Source of the DNA: Mycolicibacterium alvei
Lineage (GTDB): Bacteria > Actinomycetota > Actinomycetes > Mycobacteriales > Mycobacteriaceae
Direction of reading: 5' to 3'
DNA: 64,000 nt
NCBI RefSeq assembly: GCF_010727325.1
Contig: NZ_AP022566.1
Coordinates: forward strand, 186,001-250,000
Shown here: positions 3,695-59,940 of the stretch, piece after piece
How the letters are laid out: the number at the start of each line of letters is the position of its first letter
How positions within the stretch are numbered: the stretch's first letter is position 1
Translations under genes and position numbers: made by a program
Notes under the pieces: model-generated
Told to the model about the DNA's origin: nothing
Database searches by the model: none
Seen by the model: only the letters and a program-made list of their open reading frames with translations

Positions 3695-4165
3695 GAGATA
3701 GTCCGTTCTGCCGCGACGCTTCCCACGTTCGTTCCACGGCTCTACTCGACAGCATCCAGAGCAACGGTGTGTGCGCGATTCCCAGAACCTTGTCCTCTGA
3801 CGTCCTCGCCGACGTGGGCGGTGAGGACTCAGATCAGGCAGGCGCGGCTGCCCGGTCCTGATTCTACGCTGGGGGCCCGGAGGTCGCCTGGGTGAGCAAC
3901 GTCTCGCGACGTCGCGTGGGCGCAGGAGCCCGAGACCATCTGTCGGCGCTGAATACCTCGGTGTGTGCAGGCACCTGGTGCTGCGAGGGCGCGCCCGCGT
4001 TCTGCTGGCCTGATGTACACCGAACCGCAATCCCGGCGACGTGGGCGACGTCCAGGATCAGATCCCCGATTCGGCAGGAGTTCGGGCGCAGACCCGAGAC
4101 GATGCTGTATTTCTTTCTCAGCGACGTTCCTCTTACGGGAGCGTCACTAGTGAAGGGGCGCAGGG
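3695..4165. other. intergenic stretch without a supported gene
   Basis: About 470 bases between an unknown gene on the minus strand and the lipoprotein gene on the plus strand. Several frames are open here but their translations are Arg/Pro-rich shadows. The stretch should hold the promoters of both divergent genes; no convincing operator was seen. Confidence 0.5.
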
Positions 4166-5035
4166 GTGAGGAACTGGATGACACGGCTCGCGGCGGTTGC
4201 AGCTGTGAGCTCGGTGGTGGGTACCGCAGCCGGGTGCGGGGAGGACGCAGGGCCGTCTGGGCACGCATCCGGCGGCCCGGCTGACTGGATTTCCGCGGCA
4301 TGCAAGTACGTCCCCCCGGACGGCCCTGGACCGTTGATGTGTCACGGTCATGAAGATCCCACCAACGGTCCGTTGGCGTTCACCCCGCGGTTCACGATCT
4401 ATCAGTACAAGTCGCTGGAGCAGATGCAGCAGGACAACACCCGCCGCGACGTGGGTTTCGGCTCGGCGCAGTGCGTCTCACGTGATCGCGGGGCGATGGT
4501 GTTCATTGCTGACGTTAGCGGGATGGGTGAGCGATCGGACGCGGTGCGAATAGCAGCCCAGGCCATGCAGCCCCTCGATCAGTTTGGCTGCACCATCACC
4601 GACGCGACTCCCTCCAACCGCCGCCCAAGCACTGTGCCTCCGAAGGCAGCCAATCCTCCGGTGACACCTCCCTCGGCCATACCCCCATCGCCGTCAGCGA
4701 CGGCCCCCGCTGGGCGAGCGTTGCCCATCAACTCGTTCGGGTACGCCGCGGTTGCCACGAAAAGCGGCCTGACGACATGCATGATCGCCGCCGATTACGT
4801 GGGGTGTGAAAGCCGTGGCGGCAAATGGCCGGCGCTGGGAGTGAAGATCCTTCCCGACGGCTCCACCAGTTGGATCAACGGCAACCTCGGAGACATCAAC
4901 CCGGTCTCGATCGACTACCAGGTCTACACCGCGCTGGGGTGGACGGTTACGGCCACCGCAGCCGGGACCCGCTTCAACAACGACCGCACCGGCCACGGAG
5001 CGTTCGTCAACGCCCAAGCCGTCACACCCTTCTAG
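4166..5035 (+). CDS. putative exported lipoprotein
   Basis: 289 residues from a GTG preceded by AAGGGGCGCAGG. A short basic N-terminus (MRNWMTR) is followed by a hydrophobic segment ending in a lipobox-like GTAAGC, which predicts lipid attachment at the cysteine near residue 24. The first half contains several cysteines and a compact domain around residues 40-150. A Pro/Ser/Thr linker of about 35 residues follows, then a second domain of about 100 residues with two further cysteines (TTCMIAADYVGCES), suggesting a disulfide. The second half resembles small exported domains found in mycobacterial surface proteins; no enzyme family was recognised. It stands alone and is likely located on the outer face of the plasma membrane. 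Confidence 0.75.
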   Translation: MRNWMTRLAAVAAVSSVVGTAAGCGEDAGPSGHASGGPADWISAACKYVPPDGPGPLMCHGHEDPTNGPLAFTPRFTIYQYKSLEQMQQDNTRRDVGFGSAQCVSRDRGAMVFIADVSGMGERSDAVRIAAQAMQPLDQFGCTITDATPSNRRPSTVPPKAANPPVTPPSAIPPSPSATAPAGRALPINSFGYAAVATKSGLTTCMIAADYVGCESRGGKWPALGVKILPDGSTSWINGNLGDINPVSIDYQVYTALGWTVTATAAGTRFNNDRTGHGAFVNAQAVTPF

Positions 5036-56922: not shown

Positions 56923-57226
56923 GACCCGTAAACCCGCGATTCCGTACACCCGTTTTACCGCAGTGCCGCAGTGCCGCAGTGCCGCAGTACCGCTGCACCG
57001 CTGCACCGCGACGCCGTACCCCCGTCATACCGCGATACCGTTGCGCTGTGGAGCCGTGATACCGCAAAACCGTAGAACCGCACTACCGAGGAACCGTAGT
57101 CCCGTCATACAGTAGTGCAGTAGGACCGTGTGCCCGTATTGCCGCAGGCCCGTACTCCCGAATAGCCGTAATCCCTTAGTGCCGTACACCCGCTGAGCCG
57201 TACTCCCGTAATACCGTACGGCTGTA
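56923..57226. repeat. degenerate 8-bp tandem array, 38 units, core CCGYA
   Basis: From 56923 the sequence divides without a break into 8-base units of the form NNNCCGNN, most often ending CCGTA or CCGCA: GACCCGTA, AACCCGCG, ATTCCGTA, and so on to CGGCTGTA at 57219-57226. About 33 of the 38 units keep CCG at positions 4-6; three consecutive units are identical (GTGCCGCA, 56963-56986). There is no slip in phase over 304 bases. No gene overlaps it. It lies upstream of the 135-residue tandem RHH gene and downstream of the ParB-like gene. It fits a centromere or operator bound by RHH proteins, or replication iterons. Confidence 0.9.
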
Positions 57227-57456: not shown

Positions 57457-58203
57457 TCAGCCCTCCGGCCTCTGCACTGGCTTCTTGCCACGCTTGGCTT
57501 TCGCCGGCAGCAAATGGTGTTCGAGCACCCGGGCAATGAACTCAGAGAACGCATCGACCTTGACGGCTGCCATCCGTCCCTCAATCCACTCGCGCTGCGG
57601 GGCACTGAAGGAGATCCGCGCCTCAGTCAGAGGCGTTGACGACTTGGCACGCGTTGTCGACGACGGCATCAACCATGGGTCCGCGCTCTCAGAGACCTTG
57701 AACAGATCCGCCAACACATCATCAGGCGACTTCTGTTGGTCGGCCGCTTCCTTCGCGATCTGGGCGAATGCGTCCTGAACAATCTGCGCGTAGTCCTTGA
57801 CCTTGAGCCGCTTTGTGGTCGTGAGCTGCTTATAGGCCTCGGCAGTCAGGTACACCGACGACGCGGATGCTCCTCTGCCCGCAGTCCCGGTGCGCGGTCG
57901 CCGCGGCCGAACAACGGTCCGAGTGCTACCAGCACCACCGCCGTTGTCCGCAGCTGCAGTTTCGTCTCCCCCCGGGGAGGCGGACTCCAGGTTGTCGGCA
58001 GGCACCGCGGGAGTGCTTTCAGCAGGATCTGCCGGCGGGATCGGCTCTGAAGGGGGAGGTGTCGTCTGGGCTGGCTGCGCCGCGGCTGCGGCACGAGCAG
58101 GCGTATCGAGCAAACCCTGCAGCCTGCTCCCCCGCCCCGACGCGGGGGCCCCGCCGAACGCGCCGGCCAAGTTCTTATGGTTCGCATTCCCGTTCGAGGC
58201 CAT
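57457..58203 (-). CDS. putative partition partner (ParB-like, tandem RHH)
   Basis: 248 residues. The first 100 residues are disordered (Pro/Ala/Glu-rich) and then basic (RPRRPRTGTAGRGASAS). Two RHH-like segments follow: SSVYLTAEAYKQLTTTKRLKVKDYAQIVQDAFAQI and EARISFSAPQREWIEGRMAAVKVDAFSEFIARVLEHHLL, with a linker of about 50 residues between. The end is Lys-rich. It starts one base after the parA stop, so the two are one operon. It does not resemble classical HTH-type ParB; its role as the DNA-binding partner of ParA is inferred from position and fold. Confidence 0.7.
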   Translation of the reverse strand: MASNGNANHKNLAGAFGGAPASGRGSRLQGLLDTPARAAAAAQPAQTTPPPSEPIPPADPAESTPAVPADNLESASPGGDETAAADNGGGAGSTRTVVRPRRPRTGTAGRGASASSVYLTAEAYKQLTTTKRLKVKDYAQIVQDAFAQIAKEAADQQKSPDDVLADLFKVSESADPWLMPSSTTRAKSSTPLTEARISFSAPQREWIEGRMAAVKVDAFSEFIARVLEHHLLPAKAKRGKKPVQRPEG

Positions 58204-58204
58204 T

Positions 58205-59200
58205 TCAGATCTCCTCCCCCGCTGCCGCGTCTTCGCTGATCAATTCGTTCATCCTCATGAGCACCTCTGCTGCAAGGTTCTCGTAGTCCTCGGCCAACCC
58301 CTTACTGGTCCCAGCCCCGGTGCCCACCACATCGTCACTGAGCTTCTGGCCTGATCGCAGAGCTGCAAGTTTCCTACTCTTGGCATCGGTGCTCGCCGAC
58401 TCCAGCTCGTGGGCCAAAAGCCCGTGGCGGCGAGAATCCTGCATCGCCGAATCCGAGTGACGAATGATGGCGTCGAAGACGGGCGAGACACCACCAAGAA
58501 TCCGCTCGACCGTGTCCCGCGCGCGGGCTGCAACCCGTGTGGCCTGACTTCCGATGCCAAACCTCACCACGCCGCCAAGGCTCAACCAGGGGTTGTCCAG
58601 CTTCGCCGGCCCGAACAGATCCGCAATTGTCGACAACCCGTCGATGCTCGCGTCGTCAGCCTTGACCGGAATGACCACCATGCCGGCCACCCGCAACACC
58701 GCTTCGAGCGCAGTGATATCAACCGGTGGGGCGTCGATCAGGATCAGGTCATAGGATCGACCCAGGCCGATGATCTCCCGCTGGATGGCATCGGCGAGGC
58801 TCTCCTTGGAGTTCGCCGCGAAGTACTTGTAGATGCGCTCCAGTCCCCCACCGCCAGCGATCAGATCAACGTTGGGCCGCACCTCGGTGTACAGCGGCGG
58901 TGGCGCACTCGGGGACTTCAACAGCAAGGCCGCTGCATGCTGTTCACCATTAGCGTCGATCACATCCTTGATCGACTCGTACTCATCGACCGGCAGGCCG
59001 TAGTCGCGAGCGCAGTTGCCCTGTGGATCCAGCTCAAGCACCAGCACCCGATAGCCGGCCTGGCCGTAGAGGCCGGCCAGGTTCGCCGTGGCGCTGGTCT
59101 TCCCGACTCCGCCCTTGCCGTTTGCGAACGCGATCACCCGGAACGGCGATGGCACCACTGAGGCCAACGCGTGGACTGGTGCAGTCAACTCCGTCATCAT
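58205..59200 (-). CDS. parA: ParA-type partition ATPase
   Basis: 331 residues from ATG 59200 (GGGAGGGTAAGGA upstream). Deviant Walker A in FANGKGGVGKTSATANLAGLY, Walker A' in LELDPQGNCARDYG, Walker B in YDLILIDAPPVDI. The C-terminal 80 residues are helical and charged. ParA binds nucleoid DNA and moves plasmids by cycles of ATP hydrolysis with its partner, here the gene one base downstream. A 12-bp-periodic array begins 21 bases upstream of the start, in the promoter region. Confidence 0.92.
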   Translation of the reverse strand: MMTELTAPVHALASVVPSPFRVIAFANGKGGVGKTSATANLAGLYGQAGYRVLVLELDPQGNCARDYGLPVDEYESIKDVIDANGEQHAAALLLKSPSAPPPLYTEVRPNVDLIAGGGGLERIYKYFAANSKESLADAIQREIIGLGRSYDLILIDAPPVDITALEAVLRVAGMVVIPVKADDASIDGLSTIADLFGPAKLDNPWLSLGGVVRFGIGSQATRVAARARDTVERILGGVSPVFDAIIRHSDSAMQDSRRHGLLAHELESASTDAKSRKLAALRSGQKLSDDVVGTGAGTSKGLAEDYENLAAEVLMRMNELISEDAAAGEEI

Positions 59201-59220: not shown

Positions 59221-59940
59221 TTTACGCCCGGTAACGCGCGTCGGATGTCGCGCCATATCGCGCGTCATTCCCCGCATGTCCACGGGCGCAACGTCACGCG
59301 CGATTAGCGCTGATACTAGCGCACCACACCGAGCGTTGCATCACGCGTTGCATCACGCGTTGGTAACGCCTTGCGGCTCGCGGTATATACCGCACCACGC
59401 ACCGCTCCATGAAGCGCGCACTATCGCGCCCCGCACGGTGCGCATATCAGCGCTGAATTCGGGGCGGTTGTGAGCGCGACATATACCGCGGTGCAGTCGC
59501 CCATCAGTACGCGTGGCCATCCGCCCACTAGGGCGCGTCTGATCACGCGTGCTAGTACGCCTATTGAAAGGCGGCATATGACGCGGGCGCGTACGCGTTG
59601 CGACGCGCCAATACATGGGCGTACCTGAAGGCGTGCACCAGCGCGCACTCGTACGCGTGCTACAGCGCGTATGACGGGCGCAGCAGCTAGCCCGCCAAAC
59701 CGCGTGGCATTGGGCTCTGGTACTCGCGCGCTCAACCGCGCGGCATCCGCGTGGCCCAACACGTGGGAGTCCGCGCAGGCCCGTGCGCGACCCAACGCGC
59801 CCCGTCGGGCGCAGTGCAGGGCGCGAGGTATCACGCGCAAGTATGCGTTATGCAGAGCACGATTCGTAGCGCGACCATCCACCCGATACGACACGCGCAA
59901 GGAACGCGGCACCAAGCGCGCCATACCCGCGTTACCAGGC
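59221..59940. repeat. degenerate 12-bp tandem array, 60 units, GCG(C/T) core
   Basis: The 720 bases split into 60 consecutive 12-base units in constant phase. Nearly every unit has CGC or GCG in its first six bases, for example TCACGCGTTGCA, AGCGCGCACTAT, ACGCGTGGCCAT, GCGCGTCTGATC, ACGCGTGCTAGT, GCGCGCACTCGT, while the other six positions vary freely. Because each 60-base line holds exactly five units, the phase can be followed across all twelve lines. The array fills the region upstream of parA. Candidate centromere, origin iterons, or both. A minus-strand frame stays open through part of it because 12 is a multiple of 3. Confidence 0.92.

Follow-up and report, generated by a model that had tools for sequence, protein, structure and literature searches.

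A parA gene of Mycolicibacterium alvei is preceded by a long array of degenerate 12-base-pair (bp) units, and the question that this locus raises is what such an array does. It lies in a 64-kb stretch of DNA (the window), which covers positions 186001 to 250000 of contig C2 (304,163 bases) in a genome of two contigs, the other (C1) being 5.7 Mb. On the minus strand of the window, the array (59221 to 59937; 60 units read toward parA, core (C/G)GC(C/G)) ends ∼20 bp before the start codon of parA (58205 to 59200, 331 amino acids [aa]), and the gene directly downstream of parA encodes a putative ParB of 248 aa (57457 to 58203), called the partner below. Among the options raised in a preliminary description of the sequence, the centromere turned out to be the best explanation. 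We put the probability at roughly 0.78 that the array serves as centromere (parS) in a type I partition system with a ribbon-helix-helix (RHH) ParB and that the gene after parA encodes this ParB.

The autocorrelation of the array at lag 12 is 0.427, well above the 0.275 (±0.017) of 500 dinucleotide shuffles (z = 8.8), and it remains high at lags 24 (0.415, z = 7.8) and 36 (0.401, z = 6.9; shuffles ∼0.275). A chain model with a 12-column unit and allowed spacings of 11, 12, or 13 recovered 60 units with a width-12 score of 195, whereas none of 12 first-order Markov simulations exceeded 35 and the same array scored 24 to 55 at widths 10, 11, 13, 14, and 15. Width 12 leads width 15 by 157 and 101 in the two 1.1-kb segments lying mostly over the array, while the largest lead in the other 113 of 115 segments along the window is 24; the array is also the clear period-12 maximum of the whole 304-kb contig (margin, 0.19; next, 0.10). 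Chance periodicity is rejected by the shuffles, the simulations, and the control segments. Coding three-base periodicity is rejected as the cause because control segments score alike at widths 15 and 12 and the array does not. The 60-unit array first placed at 59221 to 59940 is thereby borne out, with boundaries that shift by 2 bases with the unit frame, but its units do not all keep one phase as had been claimed: 52 of the 59 spacings are 12, 6 are 11, and 1 is 13, and visual inspection shows the core moving from about columns 3 to 6 to columns 1 to 4 of the original frame. Likewise, a CGC or GCG core had been assigned to each unit and is present in 53 of 60; the GC dinucleotide varies least (56/60 units, against 5% at a spacer control position), being flanked on both sides by C or G in 42 units and forming CGCG in 27. 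Since this core reads almost identically on both strands, the units are barely directional.

Related plasmids also carry the array. A tblastn search with ParA in 72,556 plasmid records matched 1,903 records; among the best 40, four ParA proteins (all mycobacterial) are 60 to 80% identical, and the other 36 (Rhodococcus, Arthrobacter and kin, Gordonia, and Amnibacterium) are 36 to 43% identical. We took 16 of these 40 records (the four nearest plus 12 from the remaining 36, selected for breadth) and, in 19 loci counting the window, analyzed the 1.1 kb that precede parA. Left out were L014 and L016 (on the contigs already represented by L007 and L010), L021 (its record begins 71 bp before parA), and L001 (which is the window), and L045 and L046 lie outside the analyzed set. 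Two pairs are dependent, L011/L017 (identical parA) and L013/L019 (99%). The width-12 lead is above 24, the largest lead in a control segment, in 18 of the 19 loci, compared with at most 11 in the chromosomal ParA-like loci used as controls (L002 to L006). The second check proposed for the array, its absence from close relatives that keep parA, thus did not go against it.

The width-12/width-15 scores are 195/41 in the window (60 units), 211/41 in M. wolinskyi (L007, 61 units), 180/34 in an M. abscessus subsp. bolletii plasmid (L008, 58 units), 196/31 in pCBMA213_1 (L009, 57 units), 194/34 in M. aubagnense (L010, 66 units), 127/57 in M. avium pS2b (L011, 43 units), 184/32 in L015 (53 units), and 120/58 in L017 (42 units). 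They are 174/57 in pBD2 (L013, 51 units), 186/54 in L018 (55 units), 171/56 in L019 (52 units), 150/44 in pFiD188 (L020, 47 units), 134/40 in L022 (43 units), and 170/56 in L023 (64 units). Further out, they are 75/40 in Arthrobacter FB24 (L012, 29 units), 71/35 in pAD51 (L024, 38 units), 112/35 in Gordonia SMJS1 (L025, 73 units), and 61/34 in Amnibacterium (L026, 26 units). The leads of L012 and L024 are modest (about 35), and the calls for L012, L024, L025, and L026 rest on the chain model because their lag autocorrelation stays below the simulated maxima. Spacings of 11 and 12 are about equally frequent in L011 and L017, where width 11 scores as well as width 12, and the window, L007, L008, and L015 share spacings of 11 bp that lie at about −176 and −117 relative to parA. 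Within the genus, parA occurs at an E value of ≤1e−60 in 5 of 396 genomes (window, L007, L010, L015, and L017), all with the upstream array; the nearest named relative of its product among the genome contigs searched is from Mycolicibacterium wolinskyi (91%). The loci consist of parA and an unannotated second gene, and no centromere is annotated in the records examined. The Rhodococcus linear plasmids L013, L018, L019, L020, L022, and L023 have a common order: a ∼225- to 245-aa protein without a clear family, the array, parA, the partner region, a small gene, and a telomere-binding protein gene.

Constraint on the core is seen in the diverged Rhodococcus pair L013/L018, in which ParA is 98% identical with only 59% identity at four-fold sites and the arrays align without gaps over 48 units. 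Identity is 87% in high-information columns (n = 192) and 65% in low-information columns (n = 240; Fisher P = 2e−7), and the contrast holds with L018 as the reference (87% versus 73%, P = 3e−4). The Rhodococcus cores (about TTCC..C in pBD2) are unlike the mycobacterial ones. The better conservation of core columns therefore supports the early proposal that spacing and core, not copy identity, are what selection acts on; this proposal also withstood both the autocorrelation comparison and the survey of relatives.

In mycobacteria the array falls into two blocks. The first 19 units from parA match between the window and L007 at 6 to 12 of 12 positions, after which identity drops abruptly to background; with the core dinucleotide set aside, identity is 67% over the first 18 units and 37% over the rest (background, 33%), with parA four-fold sites at 66%. 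The parA-proximal block (59221 to 59449, minus strand, ∼19 units) is thus conserved against L007, and the distal block (59450 to 59937, minus strand, ∼41 units) is periodic without detectable sequence homology to its nearest relative. Similarly, L009 and L010 are 71% identical over the first 22 units and 34% beyond unit 24. The best 48-bp block matches of the distal array average 0.528 to L007 and 0.508 to 0.516 to four less related arrays (L007 to L008, 0.526); this near equality indicates that hardly any homology survives. The number of units and their spacing are nevertheless roughly maintained (60/61 in window/L007 and 57/66 in L009/L010). In Rhodococcus, L013 and L018 retain most of the array by common descent (best 48-bp blocks, 0.73). 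In a blastn comparison, homology between the window and L007 was confined to parAB and the proximal block, which makes replacement of the distal block by recombination possible, while homology on both sides of the distal array in L009/L010 speaks for turnover in place. Recent tandem duplication is rejected as the main origin of the array, though neighboring units are slightly more alike than in column shuffles (∼2.1 to 2.4 standard deviations in L008, L013, L015, and L018; 1.7 in the window); in the window, 9 unit pairs match at ≥10 positions against 3.9 expected, and one exact 2.5-copy repeat is present (59333 to 59362). L009 and L010 also share a 176-bp nonannotated stretch upstream of the array (about 4379 to 4551 and 4124 to 4296, respectively) that is 76% identical, with parA four-fold sites at 55%. 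An inverted repeat over the parA ribosome site was dropped as a candidate because only 2 of 30 loci, the window and M. wolinskyi, have it in exact form.

These two blocks bear on the possibility that the array is a long operator for parAB transcription with no role in segregation. Its end close to parA and the restriction of sequence conservation to the proximal 13 to 19 units fit such an operator, but ∼40 further upstream units keep spacing and core in mycobacterial relatives, apparently beyond what an operator would need, and we consider this explanation unlikely.

ParA matches Pfam AAA_31 (E = 7.5e−24, residues 21 to 194); its deviant Walker A motif, GKGGVGKT (residues 27 to 34), is invariant in all seven aligned sequences, and its N terminus leaves no room for a helix-turn-helix (HTH) domain. 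The partner has an N-terminal motif (F16, R24, L28, and L32), a low-complexity linker, and, by structure prediction, RHH motifs at 113 to 155 and 193 to 231 of one chain. Outside mycobacteria, partners were aligned from 6 of 10 loci, that of L023 from an earlier start than annotated. A ParA with a deviant Walker A and no N-terminal HTH, a downstream partner of predicted RHH fold, and repeats upstream of parA are the features of a type Ib-like RHH-ParB system. The locus is not of the canonical HTH-ParB CTPase (ParABS) type: a search of its own genome for ParB_N (PF02195) gave one match, on C1, and none on C2.

In the centromere reading, the two RHH motifs would fold into a single-chain pseudo-dimer that inserts a single two-stranded sheet in the DNA major groove at every GC core, so that one partner protein would occupy each 12-bp unit and up to ∼60 copies might sit side by side. 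A flexible N-terminal tail with the conserved arginine may contact nucleoid-bound ParA-ATP and trigger ATP hydrolysis. Because RHH-ParB proteins do not spread, array length would set the size of the partition complex, a possible reason for so many units, and the proximal block probably also holds the parA promoter and serves autorepression.

Several results weigh against this reading. The partner has no sequence link to a known ParB (no Pfam family at an E value of ≤1 and no NCBIfam match), no credible sequence match among solved structures, and weak Foldseek E values (best, 0.16). One locus of the 19, R. antarcticus L027 (23 units, 47/55), has no convincing array and was not accepted as one, and L026 is borderline (lead, 27). 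The closest Rhodococcus pair, L013/L019, lacks the contrast between core and spacer (97% and 96%), as divergence is too small to tell. There is no significant correlation between array length and plasmid size (rho = 0.36, P = 0.16, 17 records), nor was a sigma-70-like promoter detected within the array or above it. As to other searches, a partner match to RPRD1B in the solved-structure sequence search (E = 0.034) was taken as chance, a partner profile search across the family hit 2 of 401 genomes, both already known, and a scan of viral contigs for relatives found none.

A replication origin with iterons bound by an initiator, also raised in the preliminary description, found no positive support and is quite unlikely. 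Long phased arrays near a plasmid backbone gene do resemble iterons; direct repeats upstream of parAB in Deinococcus are reported to act both as an origin and in a parS-like way (PMC7671480), and the authors who described the related pCBMA213_1 found no rep gene, so that its origin must lie somewhere (PMC7478629). Against this, a Pfam scan of 10 neighbors in relatives and 20 window proteins, many without any match, detected no replication-initiator domain, and it is parA that consistently accompanies the array. The six Rhodococcus linear plasmids, moreover, have the array within ∼20 kb of one end, near the telomere-binding protein gene.

That the array is a protein-coding tetrapeptide repeat is highly improbable. 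A perfect Shine-Dalgarno sequence, AGGAGGTGA, and an ATG do open a frame into the distal array; it runs for 212 codons in the window (about 60072 to 59423) and for 221 in L007 (from −886 relative to parA). The fraction of block shuffles with parA-strand frames as long is small in L008 (0.005), L010 (0.018), L009 (0.037), and the window (0.087) but not in L007 (0.26), L015 (0.34), L011 (0.52), or any of five Rhodococcus arrays (0.24 to 0.998); column shuffles on either strand gave 0.01 (L008), 0.02 (L010), 0.04 (L007), 0.08 (L009), and 0.09 (window). We rejected coding on third-position G+C (0.62 and 0.67 in the frames versus 0.77 in parA and 0.72 in the partner), codon usage (six rare codons at 8.5% and 5.4% versus 0.9% and 1.2%), the lack of such a Shine-Dalgarno sequence at the corresponding place in L008, L009, and L010, and the spacings of 11 and 13, which would shift the frame, although an excess of open frames in some mycobacterial arrays remains.

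Beyond the centromere assignment itself, it is possible, though doubtful, that these loci form a widespread class of actinobacterial megaplasmid centromeres coded by spacing. A single-chain double-RHH ParB would read a 2- to 4-bp core every 11 to 12 bp over ∼30 to 70 units, with array length replacing CTP-driven ParB spreading. In mycobacteria the outer two thirds would keep rhythm, core, and rough unit number while the letters change faster than synonymous sites, so that the identity of the centromere would lie in its periodicity and not in its sequence.

Further along the minus strand, the order array, parA, partner continues with a second array (57228 to 56917) and a gene for a 135-aa protein (56861 to 56454). 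The second array has 39 units of consensus about AnTACGGy, with all 38 spacings exactly 8 and a score of 175 versus 14 to 65 at six other widths; near-identical neighbors at 56957 to 57011 (four ACTGCGGy in a row) indicate recent unit duplication more clearly than in the 12-bp array. It has no ParA of its own adjoining. The 135-aa protein has two RHH-like stretches by eye and a weak match to Pfam Omega_Repress (E = 0.043; 14.5 bits, below the cutoff of 33.3); its structure prediction was too poor (mean confidence, pLDDT, of 39) and was discarded. One homologue (86%) was found in a set of 5.8 billion sequences, none in the 396 genus genomes besides its own, and none in plasmid or phage records. 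This array could be an additional centromere or regulator that was acquired recently. The window also encodes type VII secretion proteins (EccA, EccD, EccE, PPE, and a subtilase) and an Lsr2 homologue, and no RNA family reached its gathering score in its 54- to 64-kb part.

No prior description of such an array was found in the open-access literature, subscription papers lying outside the search. pCBMA213_1 has been described with its ParA, without mention of the array in the parts covered, and as linear (PMC7478629), whereas its sequence record is circular. Short tandem repeats beside parA have been proposed as mycobacteriophage centromeres (PMC3585329), and a supplementary table of predicted parS sites of Arthrobacter plasmids (PMC6305408) may include such arrays. 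A 2026 survey of plasmid partition types, based on homology to well-characterized proteins, found RHH-ParB systems enriched on plasmids of <50 kb and no or an unidentified system on 52.1% of plasmids (PMC13245405). If the centromere reading is true, an RHH-type system operates on plasmids of mostly 150 to 470 kb in mycobacteria, rhodococci, gordoniae, and arthrobacters. These loci would then allow two questions to be tested directly: by what means a nonspreading ParB moves large cargo and, spacing apart, how much sequence is required in a bacterial centromere.

Among known systems, TubZRC has 12-bp TubR sites, and the spacing is alike. A relationship to TubR is not supported, as the genes adjoining the array, which are the ones typed, encode a ParA ATPase (AAA_31) as the motor and a predicted RHH partner. 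The predicted partner fold resembles the single-chain tandem RHH proteins TraY and VirC2 of the Ti plasmid, with 5 to 10% identity over the match and no family match; the matched chain in the structure comparison is one that we take to be F TraY. TraY and VirC2 act in conjugation or T-DNA processing, and we know of no long array for either. The second Deinococcus chromosome and megaplasmid also have direct repeats upstream of parAB, as 11 or 8 iterons of 18 bp bound by ParB2/ParB3 (PMC7671480). Mycobacteriophage RedRock shares an actinobacterial ParA/ParB with direct short parS repeats near parAB (PMC7157519), although with eight copies of an 8-bp motif per site; of 33 matches to the present ParA in 50,697 phage records (tblastn), none covered 80% of it. 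In type I systems with an RHH ParB, arrays upstream of the ParA gene are bound statically, without spreading (PMC13245405, PMC9499535). The delta/omega system of pSM19035 is of this kind, with a ParA, an RHH ParB, and contiguous short repeats overlapping the par promoters, at least four of which are needed for activation (PMC9499535). It has 7 to 10 heptads (WATCACW) per site, compared with ∼60 units of 12 bp and a 2- to 4-bp core here, and unlike omega the partner has two predicted RHH motifs per chain and no sequence match that would place it in the omega family. Arrays upstream of parA are thus known as such, and the impression that this one is new holds for its length, its degeneracy, and the family of its partner; it differs from the known RHH-ParB layout in its scale, its tiny core, and its single-chain partner.
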